DNA from: Micromonospora zamorensis
Lineage (GTDB): Bacteria; Actinomycetota; Actinomycetes; Mycobacteriales; Micromonosporaceae
Direction of reading: 5' to 3'
NCBI RefSeq assembly: GCF_900090275.1
Contig: NZ_LT607755.1
Location: 4,216,001-4,280,000 of the forward strand
Length of the DNA stretch: 64,000 nucleotides
In this document: one piece after another, positions 17,734 through 20,766 of the stretch
Layout of the letters: each line of letters begins with the position of its first letter
Numbering within the stretch: the first letter of the stretch is position 1
Program-made: the position numbers and the translations under genes
Notes under the pieces: model-generated
The model's database searches: none
The model's input: only the letters and a program-made list of their open reading frames with translations
Told to the model about the DNA's origin: nothing

Positions 17734-18657
17734 ATGATCGTCCACGCCGTGTCCGGCGACACCTGGGGCATCTCCGGCCCGACCTTCCTCCGGTACTACC
17801 TGTTGGCAGCCGCTCTGGTGGTGGCCGTCGCGGTGTACCACCGGGTCCGTCTGGCGGCCGCGTCGACCGCTGCCATGACCGCCGATCCACTCGGGCCGCA
17901 GCAGGTCGCGTACCTCAACGGTGGACCCCGACTCGCCGTACACGCCGCGTTGGGTGGACTGCGCGGCAGCGGCGCGATCGGCGTGCGGCCGGACCGTCGA
18001 CTGACCACCAGCGGGGTCGCGCCGACCGGGCTCACCCCACTGGACCAGGCCATCCACTGGGCCGCCCATCAGCACGCCCGGGTCGGGGACCTGCCGCAGG
18101 ACGAGCGCGTACGTGTCGCGCTGCACCAGATCCGCAACGGCCTGGAGCAGCGGGGTCTGCTGACCGACGACGCGCAACGCGCCCGCGCCCGCTTCTGGAC
18201 CACGATCCTGATCGCCCTGCTGGGCCTCGGCGTGCTCCGGTTGGTCTCCGGCCTGTTCAGCGGTCGCCCGGTCGGTTACCTGCTGCTGACCCTTGTTGCG
18301 CTCCTGATCGTCACCTTGGTGCTGCGCCGGGCGCCCGTGCTCACCCGGGCCGGTCGGTCCACGCTGCGCGGTGTACGCCGCGAGCACACCCACCTCGCTC
18401 CGGCCTCCACGCCGTCCTACGCCACCTACGGAGCTGCCGGCGCGGCGATGGGCGTGGCTCTGTACGGCACCGCCTCACTCTGGGCGCTCGACCCCGGCTT
18501 CGCCGAGCAGGCCGAGATCCAGCGCCAGGCCGCCTCCGGCAGCGGCTGGACGGGCGGCTCCGACGGATCGTCCGGAGGCGACAGCTCCGGTGGAGACGGC
18601 GGCAGCTCCTGCGGCGGTGGTGGCGGCTGCGGCGGTGGCGGGGGGTGCGGCGGATGA
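17734..18657 (+). CDS. TIGR04222 membrane protein with Gly/Ser/Cys-rich C-terminal tail
   Basis: A 307-residue protein with the TIGR04222 domain at the N-terminus (FLRYYLLAAALV, QQVAYLNGGPRLAVHAALGGL, LDQAIHWA). Likely transmembrane helices are at about 20-37, 152-172, 177-195 and 230-250. From about residue 270 the chain becomes Gly/Ser/Asp-rich and ends in a ladder with Cys at 293, 299 and 305, each separated by five Gly. These are the only cysteines in the protein. A Shine-Dalgarno AGGAG precedes the ATG. The stop overlaps the ATG of the DUF692 gene. TIGR04222 proteins often have such low-complexity tails and DUF692 neighbours, so this one may be a substrate for modification. Confidence 0.85.
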   Translation: MIVHAVSGDTWGISGPTFLRYYLLAAALVVAVAVYHRVRLAAASTAAMTADPLGPQQVAYLNGGPRLAVHAALGGLRGSGAIGVRPDRRLTTSGVAPTGLTPLDQAIHWAAHQHARVGDLPQDERVRVALHQIRNGLEQRGLLTDDAQRARARFWTTILIALLGLGVLRLVSGLFSGRPVGYLLLTLVALLIVTLVLRRAPVLTRAGRSTLRGVRREHTHLAPASTPSYATYGAAGAAMGVALYGTASLWALDPGFAEQAEIQRQAASGSGWTGGSDGSSGGDSSGGDGGSSCGGGGGCGGGGGCGG

Positions 18658-19472
18658 CCGGCCCGTCCGGAGTCGGCATCGGCTGGCGTCCGGAGATCGC
18701 TGGCTTCGTGGCCGAGCTCCCCGGCCTGCGCTTCGTGGAGGTGGTGGCCGAGGGGGTGCCCTCGTCCGGGCCGCTCCCGCCGGGTCTTGCGCAGCTGCGG
18801 GAGCGCGGCGTGACTGTCGTACCCCATGGGGTGCGGCTCTCCCTCGGCGGCGCCGAGCCGGTCGATCCGGCCCGCGTCGCCCACCTGGCCGCTGTGGCGC
18901 AGCAGGTCGACGCCCCGCTGGTCAGCGAGCACATCGCGTTCGTCCGAGCCGGCGGCCTGGAGGCCGGGCATCTGCTCCCGTTGCCGCGCAGCCGGGAGGC
19001 GGTCGACGCCGTCTGCGCCAACGTGGCGCGGGCGCAGGCCGAACTGCCGGTGCCGATCGCGCTGGAACCGATCGCCGCGTTGGTCGAGTGGCCCGACGAC
19101 GAGCTGGACGAGGCGGACTTCCTCACCGAGATCCTCGACCGGACCGGCGCACTGTTGCTGCTGGACGTGGCGAACGTGCACGCCAACGCCCGCAACCGGG
19201 GCACCGACCCGCTCGCGTTGCTGGACCGTCTGCCGCTGGAGCGGGTCGCGTACGTCCACGTGGCCGGCGGCGCCGAGCACGGCGGTTTCTACCACGACAC
19301 CCACACCGATCCGGTGCCAGCGGCGGTGCTGGAGCTGGTCGGCGCGCTCTGCGCTCGACAGCGTCCGCCGGCGCTGCTGCTGGAACGGGACGGCCACTAT
19401 CCACCGGCAGCCGAGCTGCGCGCCGAACTGGACGCCCTGGCCGCCGCCGCGGGCTTCCCGGCCGTGACATGA
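18654..19472 (+). CDS. DUF692 family multinuclear non-heme iron enzyme (MNIO)
   Basis: A 272-residue TIM-barrel protein of the DUF692/MbnB-TglH family, enzymes that use two or three iron ions and oxygen to remodel Cys (or other residues) in peptides. Expected metal-binding positions are present: H58 (VPHGV), E92/H93 (SEHIAF), E138 (LEPIA), D171, N174 and H176 (DVANVHANA), H202 (VHVAGG), H214/D215/H217 (YHDTHTDP) and E244 (LLERDG). It is coupled by 4-base overlaps both to the TIGR04222 gene before it and to the partner gene after it. Known MNIOs act with a partner protein on a Cys-containing substrate, which matches this arrangement. The reaction here is unknown. Confidence 0.9.
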   Translation: MTGPSGVGIGWRPEIAGFVAELPGLRFVEVVAEGVPSSGPLPPGLAQLRERGVTVVPHGVRLSLGGAEPVDPARVAHLAAVAQQVDAPLVSEHIAFVRAGGLEAGHLLPLPRSREAVDAVCANVARAQAELPVPIALEPIAALVEWPDDELDEADFLTEILDRTGALLLLDVANVHANARNRGTDPLALLDRLPLERVAYVHVAGGAEHGGFYHDTHTDPVPAAVLELVGALCARQRPPALLLERDGHYPPAAELRAELDALAAAAGFPAVT

Positions 19473-20014
19473 CCGGGCCGCGCGACGACAGCGGCAGGCG
19501 GTCGTCCGGCGATGTCGGCGGGCTCGCCCAGCGACAGGCGGAACTGGTCGCGACGTTGGTCGCCGGAGGGCCGCCGCCGCCAGGCTTCGCACCGGCCCAA
19601 CTGGCCGCCACCCGGGCGGCCCTGGGACGCAAACGTGCCGGCGAGGTGGCCCGACACTGGCCACTGCTCGCCGCCGGCCTCGGCGCCACCTGGTCGACGA
19701 CCTTCGCAGGCTGGGCAGCCGGGCGACCAACCGCCGGGTCGTTGCGCGACGGTTGGGACCTGGCCCGTGCGATGCGCGAACAGGGTGCGCTGCCCCCGGC
19801 CGCCGCCGAGGAACTGGCCGTCCGGGAGGCGCGCCTGCGCTACGACGGGCTCGGGGCGCCACGTCCGCGCCGGATGCCGGCCGTGGGCCGCGCCGGCGGC
19901 GCCGTGGCGGTGCAGATCGCCGGTCGGGTACGTCTGCTGCGCCCCGCCTCGCGTCCACCCGCAGTTGGTGGCGACGGTGTGTCGGATGCGGCAGGATCGA
20001 CCTTATGGATCTAG
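19469..20014 (+). CDS. putative MNIO partner protein (SCO6045-like)
   Basis: A 181-residue, Arg/Ala-rich, mostly helical protein encoded directly after the DUF692 enzyme, with its ATG overlapping that stop by 4 bases. The central block (LAATRAALGRKRAGEVARHWP, then TWSTTFAGWAAGRP and LRDGWDLARAMREQGALP) resembles the small proteins found beside actinobacterial DUF692 genes (SCO6045-like). It probably takes the role that MbnC or TglI-type partners play elsewhere, namely binding the substrate and presenting it to the enzyme. The last ~40 residues are low complexity. The role is inferred from position. Confidence 0.65.
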   Translation: MTGPRDDSGRRSSGDVGGLAQRQAELVATLVAGGPPPPGFAPAQLAATRAALGRKRAGEVARHWPLLAAGLGATWSTTFAGWAAGRPTAGSLRDGWDLARAMREQGALPPAAAEELAVREARLRYDGLGAPRPRRMPAVGRAGGAVAVQIAGRVRLLRPASRPPAVGGDGVSDAAGSTLWI

Positions 20015-20766
20015 GCCTGACCGACCACGTGTACGTCCTCACCGGCGCCTCTCGCGGCCTGGGCTTCGCAACCGCGCAGTGCCTGGTCGCCGACGGGGCA
20101 CGGGTGGTCCTCTCGGCACGGGACCCGGACGCCGTGGCCGCCGCCGCGCAGCAGCTCGGCGGTCCCGAGCATGCCGTCGGGCTGACCGCCGACCTAGCCG
20201 ACCCGGAGACCCCGGAGCAGCTCGTCGCCGCCGCCCGGGAGCACTTCGGCCGTATCGACGGCGCGCTGATCTCGGTCGGCGGGCCACCGGCGGGCAACGC
20301 CGCCGCGATCAGCGACGAGCAGTGGCGGCAGTCCTTCGAGACCGTCTTCCTGGGCACGATCCGCGCGGTGCGTACGGTTGCCGCCGCGCTGCCCGAGGGC
20401 GGTGCGATCGGGCTGGTGCTCTCCACCTCGGCCCGGGGCCCGGTGCCCGGCCTCGGCATCTCCAACGGTCTGCGGCCCGGCCTGGTCGGGGCGGCGAAGG
20501 ACATCGCCGACGACTACGGCCCGCGTGGCGTACGAGTGGTCGGGCTGCTGCCGGGCCGGATCCTGACCGACCGCAACCGGGAGCTCTTCGCCGCGACCGG
20601 CGACCCGGAACGCGCCCGCACCGAGGCGGAAGCCGCCATCCCGCTGCGTCGCCTCGGCGATCCCGCCGAGTTCGGCCGGGTGGCCGCGTTCGTGCTCTCC
20701 CCCGCCGCGAGCTACCTCACCGGGATCACCCTCCCGGTCGACGGCGGCGCGTTGCGCGGGCTGTGA
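20005..20766 (+). CDS. SDR-family oxidoreductase
   Basis: Short-chain dehydrogenase/reductase of 253 residues. The nucleotide-binding motif TGASRGLGFA is at residues 13-22. The NAG-like motif is replaced by SVGGPP. The active-site region has STSARGPVPGLGISNGLRPGL, in which the usual YxxxK is not present (SNGLRPGL instead of YSASKAAL). The C-terminus VDGGALRGL is typical. The loss of the Tyr-Lys pair suggests altered chemistry or a non-catalytic role, as in some SDR subfamilies. The start overlaps the preceding gene by 10 bases, so it may belong to the same transcript, though no functional link is evident. Confidence 0.82.
   Translation: MDLGLTDHVYVLTGASRGLGFATAQCLVADGARVVLSARDPDAVAAAAQQLGGPEHAVGLTADLADPETPEQLVAAAREHFGRIDGALISVGGPPAGNAAAISDEQWRQSFETVFLGTIRAVRTVAAALPEGGAIGLVLSTSARGPVPGLGISNGLRPGLVGAAKDIADDYGPRGVRVVGLLPGRILTDRNRELFAATGDPERARTEAEAAIPLRRLGDPAEFGRVAAFVLSPAASYLTGITLPVDGGALRGL

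Follow-up and report, generated by a model that had tools for sequence, protein, structure and literature searches.

The A-B-C locus of Micromonospora zamorensis

The window analysed here is a 64,000-nucleotide stretch of the Micromonospora zamorensis genome (contig NZ_LT607755.1, positions 4,216,001 to 4,280,000), and its subject is a group of three plus-strand genes, A, B and C, which encode a TIGR04222 membrane protein ending in a Gly/Cys tail, an MNIO (DUF692) enzyme and the probable partner of that enzyme (Table 1). MNIOs are enzymes known from the biosynthesis of peptide natural products. Read directly from the window, both junctions between the genes are ATGA overlaps, in agreement with the original prediction, made from the letters of this DNA, of three genes joined by four-base overlaps. 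The family calls of that prediction also hold: the A protein scores 171.7 bits (E 1.9e-50) against the NCBIfam model TIGR04222 (near_uncomplex), over its curated cut-off of 43, and the B protein scores 270.4 bits against Pfam PF05114, over the gathering cut-off of 25. The 7.1 Mb host genome contains a single match to each of these two families, a scan of the window revealed no second tail of the kind found on A, and the nearest named relatives of the locus are from Micromonospora.

Table 1. Positions in the window of the three genes and of the segments of A discussed in the text.
Feature	Position	Strand	Description
Gene A	17734..18657	+	TIGR04222 membrane protein, 307 residues, carrier of the Gly/Cys tail
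Gene B	18654..19472	+	MNIO (DUF692, PF05114) enzyme, 272 residues, metal-site residue set complete
Gene C	19469..20014	+	MNIO partner, 181 residues; relatives labelled PF26136; probably PME-type 2
First membrane helix of A, residues 15-47	17776..17874	+	From model; N-terminus predicted outside by the positive-inside rule
Membrane hairpin of A, helices 146-175 and 181-198	18169..18327	+	From model; seemingly an insertion into a domain that is soluble apart from it
Pre-tail helices of A, 229-244, 247-252 and 254-268	18418..18537	+	Taken here to belong to the cytosolic domain
Gly/Ser/Cys tail of A, residues 269-307	18538..18654	+	Cys 293/299/305, CGG end; proposed substrate

The only cysteines of A are residues 293, 299 and 305 (codons at 18610, 18628 and 18646), separated in each case by five glycines, exactly as first described. 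They sit in SSCGGGGGCGGGGGCGG at the extreme end of the protein, the C-terminus of which is CGG. A C-proximal Cys tail with an adjacent MNIO is the mark of the TIGR04222-MNIO clusters of Antoine et al. (2025, PMC12452194), and both are found here; in the accessible text of that paper, the C-proximal Cys segments of TIGR04222 proteins are already proposed as MNIO substrates. The locus is a member of this published family, and its core interpretation is already in print. With 307 residues and several membrane helices, A is not a small bufferin-type precursor.

The residues of the predicted metal site of B are H58, H93, E138, D171, N174, H202, D215, H217 and E244. All but the first two are present in every row of a 165-row MNIO alignment, three rows of which are the window's own gene B, and H58 and H93 are present in 163 of the 165 rows, with gaps in the other two. 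The metal-binding set named in the original prediction is therefore present in B and conserved. Via the structure 3bww, a mapping made in this analysis aligns N174, D215 and H217 with N175, D242 and H244 of HvfB, which are described as essential in the available part of the HvfB preprint (PMC13419390). The residue that follows the conserved glutamate, at position 139, is Pro in all 74 Micromonosporaceae rows and Asn in 76 of the 90 others.

Gene C matches no Pfam or NCBIfam model. For C and three of its relatives there is no Pfam match of any kind at E values up to 10, and so none to DUF2063, the mark of PME-type 1 partners. In precomputed annotation the listed relatives of C are assigned to PF26136, which some records name 'SCO6045-like C-terminal domain', and no relative of solved structure was found by sequence profile. 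C is 68% identical to a 158-residue Micromonospora matsumotoense protein (in locus L082), which, matched by species name and length, is the PME-type 2 partner modelled in PMC12452194; in its available text, that paper proposes such partners for part of the TIGR04222 substrates and shows a TIGR04222 protein from M. purpureochromogenes. PME-type 2 partners are defined by a place after the MNIO and a fold resembling NGO1945/TglI, with no DUF2063 match. From its position after the MNIO and from this orthology by species and length, C is probably a PME-type 2 partner.

Conservation of the tail in Micromonosporaceae

The family was represented by the best 80 of 98 loci found with peptides outside the tail, six of which are cut inside A by contig ends. 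Among the 74 loci with a complete A frame, 73 combine a CGG end with a downstream MNIO; in the exception (L064), A reads on in frame into another gene. The TIGR04222 domain itself is free of Cys in 68 of the 74 loci, the ATGA junction after A is kept in 62, and the partner was located in 70, the misses being three loci with 925-962 bases of contig after A, and L064.

Each tail holds two to six Cys. The five-glycine spacing emphasized in the original prediction, while correct for A itself, does not extend across its relatives: of 237 gaps between successive Cys (L064 included), 126 are five residues long, 69 of these being all-Gly, and nearly all others are of 3-14 residues. Exact Gly5 spacing was thus rejected as a conserved code. 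The conserved features are repeated Cys flanked by Gly or Ser and, in Micromonosporaceae, also the CGG end.

The surroundings of the locus are partly conserved as well. The start of an SDR gene (window 20005-20766) overlaps the last 10 bases of gene C, and a close relative of this SDR gene is found in 68 of the 80 Micromonosporaceae loci, some of which are cut by contig ends, while a TetR gene is found in all 80. Among the families sampled, both neighbours are kept in Micromonosporaceae only. The scan of the immediate neighbours identified HAD hydrolase, nitrilase-like, TetR, SDR and uracil-DNA glycosylase genes, none of them a metal gene, and the neighbour genes, considered as a clue to the metal, gave no hint.

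Co-occurrence of the tail with MNIO enzymes

In a class-wide sample of 393 genomes, PF05114 was found in 98 and TIGR04222 in at least 118 (E<=1e-8, best seven candidates per genome). From the fetched loci 147 TIGR04222 genes were scored, those with at least three small-residue-flanked Cys in the tail being counted as Cys-tailed. Seventy genes qualified, and all 70 belong to genomes with an MNIO: 69 to one of the 98 PF05114 genomes, and the last (L206) to a genome in which an MNIO frame lies within the L206 locus itself. The enzyme is encoded in the fetched locus and on the same strand for 62 of them, and elsewhere in the genome for the other eight. The question of whether Cys-tailed TIGR04222 genes are always accompanied by a DUF692 gene can thus be answered in the affirmative by genome, and for 62 of the 70 by locus. 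Together with the conservation of the tail, this co-occurrence supports the original proposal that the Cys tail is a likely MNIO substrate.

The remaining 77 genes are Cys-poor, 44 of them in MNIO genomes and 33 in MNIO-free ones; in the available text of PMC12452194, over a quarter of TIGR04222 proteins likewise lack C-proximal Cys. The original prediction had named Cys-less homologues in the same operon context as evidence against the substrate idea, and these do occur: an MNIO is present in the locus of 25 of the 77, with 23 of the 25 in a single genus, g7, which is probably Streptomyces. In six of the 23 loci, however, the MNIO is also accompanied by a Cys-tailed paralogue, and six more of the 23 genomes have the tail on an unlinked single-helix protein; in the other eleven, no tail was found. 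Because the tail is present on a paralogue or in trans, the exceptions refute the generalization to every TIGR04222 protein in an MNIO context, but not the substrate idea.

Among Gly/Ser-rich tails, the median number of Cys in the last 40 residues is 4 for MNIO-linked genes (n=60), 3 where the MNIO is elsewhere in the genome (n=11, four with none) and 0 in MNIO-free genomes (n=11, ten with none). These counts bear on the view that the cysteines arose by neutral drift, from GGC to TGC, in a low-complexity Gly-rich linker. Such drift needs little, as the Gly and Cys codons are one base apart, and the varying Gly count and spacing fit it. Yet the MNIO-free tails offer the same Gly-rich ground and are almost always without Cys, and the CGG end is nearly invariant in Micromonosporaceae, although the ATGA overlap partly holds its last codon. 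Drift is accordingly considered a very improbable explanation.

Several related arrangements were seen in the same sample. Six loci (L128, L135, L137, L150, L154 and L165) contain a tandem TIGR04222 pair by the MNIO, one copy Cys-tailed and the other tail-less, while in 17 related loci the tail-less copy alone was found, 10 of these with a DUF4142 gene. The DUF4142 neighbour was rejected as a substitute for the Cys-tail gene, since it also occurs beside Cys-tail genes. Five soluble TIGR04222-like paralogues in MNIO genomes (L229, L235, L236, L242 and L344) have one or two Cys in the C-terminal region and are possible minor MNIO substrates.

The tail on other carriers

Considered from the side of the enzyme, the class sample provided 97 loci with an MNIO frame of more than 60 bits, about ten of the 110 PF05114 matches, including the three highest-scoring, being left out. 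The tail is on a TIGR04222 protein in 55 of these loci and on another protein in nine, and no tail is present on the same strand in 33. Seven of the nine other carriers are proteins of 83-119 residues with one N-terminal helix, and six of these are encoded between the MNIO and the partner (L248, L249, L250, L252, L257 and L258); the locus of the seventh (L266) has no partner match, and L293 contains an eighth such carrier. The remaining two (L254 and L255) are of about 450 residues and without a helix, their best 19-residue hydropathy (KD scale) values being 1.26 and 1.39. None of the locus carriers scanned in Pfam and NCBIfam reached a family cut-off.

The same tail is also found far from any MNIO. 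In a sample of 199 genomes of genus g7, a narrow tail pattern of one exact spacing was found in 65, giving 70 matches versus 15 in a reversed control. Of 78 distinct pattern matches, 59 were examined, and these comprise 50 single-helix proteins, four TIGR04222 proteins, four that are too short or cut and one spurious match (L336); the 36-residue frames of L326 and L329 were rejected, L357 is too short for judgement, and L359 is cut by a contig end. In none of the 50 single-helix loci is there an MNIO or partner match within the surrounding 3-4.5 kb. The TIGR04222 locus L355 does have an MNIO, and partner matches are present in L350, L353 and L355. A looser pattern gave mostly noise, with forward counts like those of the control; among the matches listed, two were true tails (G023 and G555), and for a further candidate (G172) no tail protein was found (L379).

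The single-helix carriers of g7 (L320-L325, L327, L328, L330-L335, L337-L343, L345-L349 and others to L378) share one layout: a helix, an Arg-rich stretch, WW, often a His-rich stretch, (SSCGGG)n, and a tail of the CGGGGGCGGGS type. In a slightly different cut of 51 such proteins, with start codons guessed, the median length is 99 residues, and WW is present in 48 and HSC in 41. Two g7 carriers that were scanned reached no family cut-off. Taken together, the carriers suggest from their sequences that the tail is a portable tag on several otherwise unrelated proteins.

The enzyme and partner, too, vary in their arrangement. Among 79 MNIO frames (L112-L251), 40 hold the MNIO and a C-type domain in one open frame, 34 have the two in separate frames, and five have no C-type match. 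In the available part of the HvfB preprint, an HvfBCfusion construct is active (PMC13419390); such a fusion is not described in the accessible text of PMC12452194, and no substrate for an SCO6045-type MNIO-partner fusion was found assigned in the literature searched, as far as its available text goes. SCO6045 itself, to judge by the PF26136 name an MNIO-partner fusion of Streptomyces coelicolor, has a single table entry in the HbpS-SenS-SenR regulon paper (PMC4991794, available in part), which fits a redox or metal role. In one locus (L215, 4319-5336) the Cys tail of a TIGR04222 frame runs on into a short partner-domain match, with no adjacent MNIO; the same genome encodes an MNIO and partner at a different locus (L270).

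A substrate role for the tail nevertheless has several observations to contend with. Of 85 loci with both MNIO and partner, 26 have no adjacent Cys tail. In 12 of these the tail is elsewhere in the genome, on a single-helix protein in nine (G023, G182, G222, G404, G431, G448, G465, G555 and G637) and on a TIGR04222 protein in three (G363, G589 and G323). It was not found in the other 14, of which 13 were searched with the one-exact-spacing pattern and G421 was not searched. An MNIO (E<=1e-40) is present in 186 of the 199 g7 genomes, and the genus-wide link with the tail is not significant (63 of 186 MNIO-bearing genomes versus two of 13 MNIO-free ones, Fisher p 0.23). In both of these MNIO-free genomes the tail looks genuine. 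The G685 assembly consists of 1300 contigs and its tail gene is truncated, but G738, with no MNIO match at E<=1e-40, has a complete rating and speaks against a strict link. Furthermore, the co-occurrence counts of the class sample are inflated by kinship. The tree shows at least 10 changes of the Cys tail, but only three independent pairs lie on supported branches, and the phylogenetic test is underpowered; none of the sign tests of Cys tail against MNIO was significant. Finally, L188 has an MNIO beside a TIGR04222 protein with a Cys-free Gly tail, and the start codons of the small carriers are guesses.

Some of these observations could be accommodated if the tail were an unmodified Cys/His metal-binding or redox element, with the MNIO and its partner acting on something else, nearby or elsewhere. 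This would explain the loci for which no tail was found even in trans and the tail of G738, and the HSC of most single-helix carriers is consistent with it. It leaves unexplained why Cys-tailed TIGR04222 genes of the class sample are restricted to MNIO genomes, and why the same tail recurs within enzyme operons on different carriers, six of them encoded between the MNIO and its partner. An unmodified tail is therefore regarded as rather improbable.

Orientation of the tail

The proposed modification of the tail by B and C raises the question of which side of the membrane it is on. With a net charge of +6, the loop after helix 3 of A is expected on the inner side under the positive-inside rule, and the side of the tail thus depends on whether a fourth membrane helix follows; for the tail to be outside, the pre-tail helices would need to be that helix. 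In the AlphaFold2 model of A (pLDDT 79.9), the pre-tail segment consists of 16 residues, a break and two more helices. On the KD hydropathy scale, the median of the best pre-tail window is 1.33 in Micromonosporaceae (at least 1.6 in 3 of 82) and 1.10 in the Cys-tail genes of the class (at least 1.6 in 9 of 63), as compared with 2.15-2.48 for the hairpin helices. The loop before the segment has a net charge of +6 and +4, and a charged residue lies within the best pre-tail window in 49 of the 63 class genes.

The soluble paralogues point in the same direction. Four of them (L229, L235, L236 and L242) have no hairpin, match the domain on both sides of its position and keep the pre-tail helix; because they do so, both domain halves and the pre-tail helix seem to form one soluble fold. 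In a fifth (L233) the first domain half alone is matched, whereas the hairpin is present in L193, L196 and L198, which are near relatives. In the single-helix carriers, Lys and Arg are more numerous in the 30 residues after the helix than in the 30 before it in 51 of 51 (median 7 versus 0), and the same is true of all eight such carriers from MNIO loci. From the model and these sequence features, the tail most likely faces the cytosol.

Some points count against this orientation. The best windows of the hairpin helices, too, hold a charged residue (35 of 69 and 32 of 67). Among Micromonosporaceae, one is present in helix 2 in 82 of 82 but in the pre-tail window in only 15 of 82; charge is thus a weaker argument than hydropathy, which is itself crude. 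Moreover, on the basis of AlphaFold2 models, Antoine et al. assign the tail a periplasmic position in the available text (PMC12452194). The cytosolic and the periplasmic view alike rest on prediction.

The same enzyme and substrate could also be imagined with the tail outside, by way of a fourth helix, in the manner of a membrane-tethered bufferin; an outside tail is the view of both the original prediction and Antoine et al. In addition to the published topology, bufferin precursors have Sec signal peptides in the accessible literature, the pre-tail segment of Micromonosporaceae is of moderate hydrophobicity and carries no charge in 67 of 82, and the net charge after it in A is -5. On the other hand, the segment is 16 residues long in the model of A, its median hydropathy is weak in Micromonosporaceae and lower in the other Cys-tail genes, it is kept in soluble paralogues, and the helix-free carriers and the Arg-flanked single-helix carriers fit a cytosolic tail. 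An outside tail is consequently judged unlikely, and the related suggestion that modification must precede or accompany insertion finds no support, as the tail is most likely in the cytosol together with the enzyme.

Proposed role of the tail

The observations can be combined into one scheme. A would be a three-helix membrane protein with its N-terminus outside, whose split soluble domain and tail face the cytosol. There, the cytosolic MNIO B, helped by the partner C, would oxidize the Gly/Ser-flanked cysteines of the tail. The likely product would be a thiooxazole-type ring, by analogy with BufB and HvfB; this chemistry is a guess, because these best-scoring models of B remain below their cut-offs. 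The tail would act as a portable substrate tag on carriers with other anchors or none, near the enzyme or far from it, and, as a further guess, the modified tail would most likely bind copper or another soft metal at the inner membrane face. The cytosol-facing A, the modification by B and C, the portable tag and the metal binding are together somewhat more probable than the opposite.

A broader proposal, that a portable Gly/Ser/Cys tag serves Actinobacteria as an MNIO substrate on unrelated cytosol-facing carriers, modified after insertion to give a metal-binding lining of the inner face rather than a secreted ribosomally synthesized and post-translationally modified peptide (RiPP), is made tentatively and falls a little short of an even chance. 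Should the tail indeed undergo modification in place, on membrane-bound and soluble carriers alike, MNIOs would also be routine protein modifiers in common soil bacteria, where the presence of the enzyme in most of the sampled probable-Streptomyces genomes indicates its breadth. The portable tail points to candidate substrates that laboratory strains would allow to be tested, and a cytosolic topology would remove the puzzle of export and predicts a metal store at the inner face.

Comparison with known systems

A is weakly similar to the DUF2207 membrane proteins (PF20990): its match to DUF2207_C (E 0.0084, 16.3 bits) is below the cut-off of 33, and two relatives of A are labelled as PF20990 in precomputed annotation. 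In other classes of the phylum, many frames of 500-900 residues give weak TIGR04222 matches (19-38 bits). From these sequence matches, there are hints of one superfamily.

The MbnB/MbnC, TglH/TglI and ChrH systems share with B its enzyme superfamily and the logic of enzyme plus partner, but their substrates are peptides, and B scores far below the cut-offs for MbnB (24.6 versus 325) and ChrH (51.2 versus 600). A Streptomyces MNIO with a known substrate, StdE, belongs to a RiPP cluster in the available text of PMC13174530, and TIGR04222 is mentioned in a bacteriocin cluster in that of PMC5183585. The best-scoring models for B are the bufferin maturase BufB (NF050167 equivalog, 190 bits versus a cut-off of 310) and HvfB (155.6 bits versus 360), both below their thresholds. 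Cys substrates, proposed for the present locus, are shared with BufABC and HvfABC, thiooxazole chemistry being reported for the latter two; here, however, the proposed substrate is a 307-residue membrane protein, and the partner has no DUF2063 match. A second type of MNIO, scoring about 367-370 bits and unlike the tail-linked enzymes, was seen in G529:C34, G491:C22 and G472:C1:4387705; these are perhaps ordinary bufferin-type loci.

The closest likeness is to the TIGR04222-MNIO-PME clusters of PMC12452194, with which the locus shares its gene set, the C-proximal Cys in a Ser/Gly-rich tail and the Micromonospora examples. In the accessible text of that paper, neither other carriers of the tail nor an unlinked single-helix carrier are described, although its small 'adjamnio-V' proteins may be the single-helix carriers; nor, in the available text of the literature searched, was a description found of the portable tail, the unlinked carrier or the cytosolic topology. 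The principal difference is that the tail is placed in the periplasm there and in the cytosol here. What the present analysis probably adds to the published family is the portable tail, including its unlinked single-helix carrier of about 100 residues, and the probably cytosolic location of that tail.

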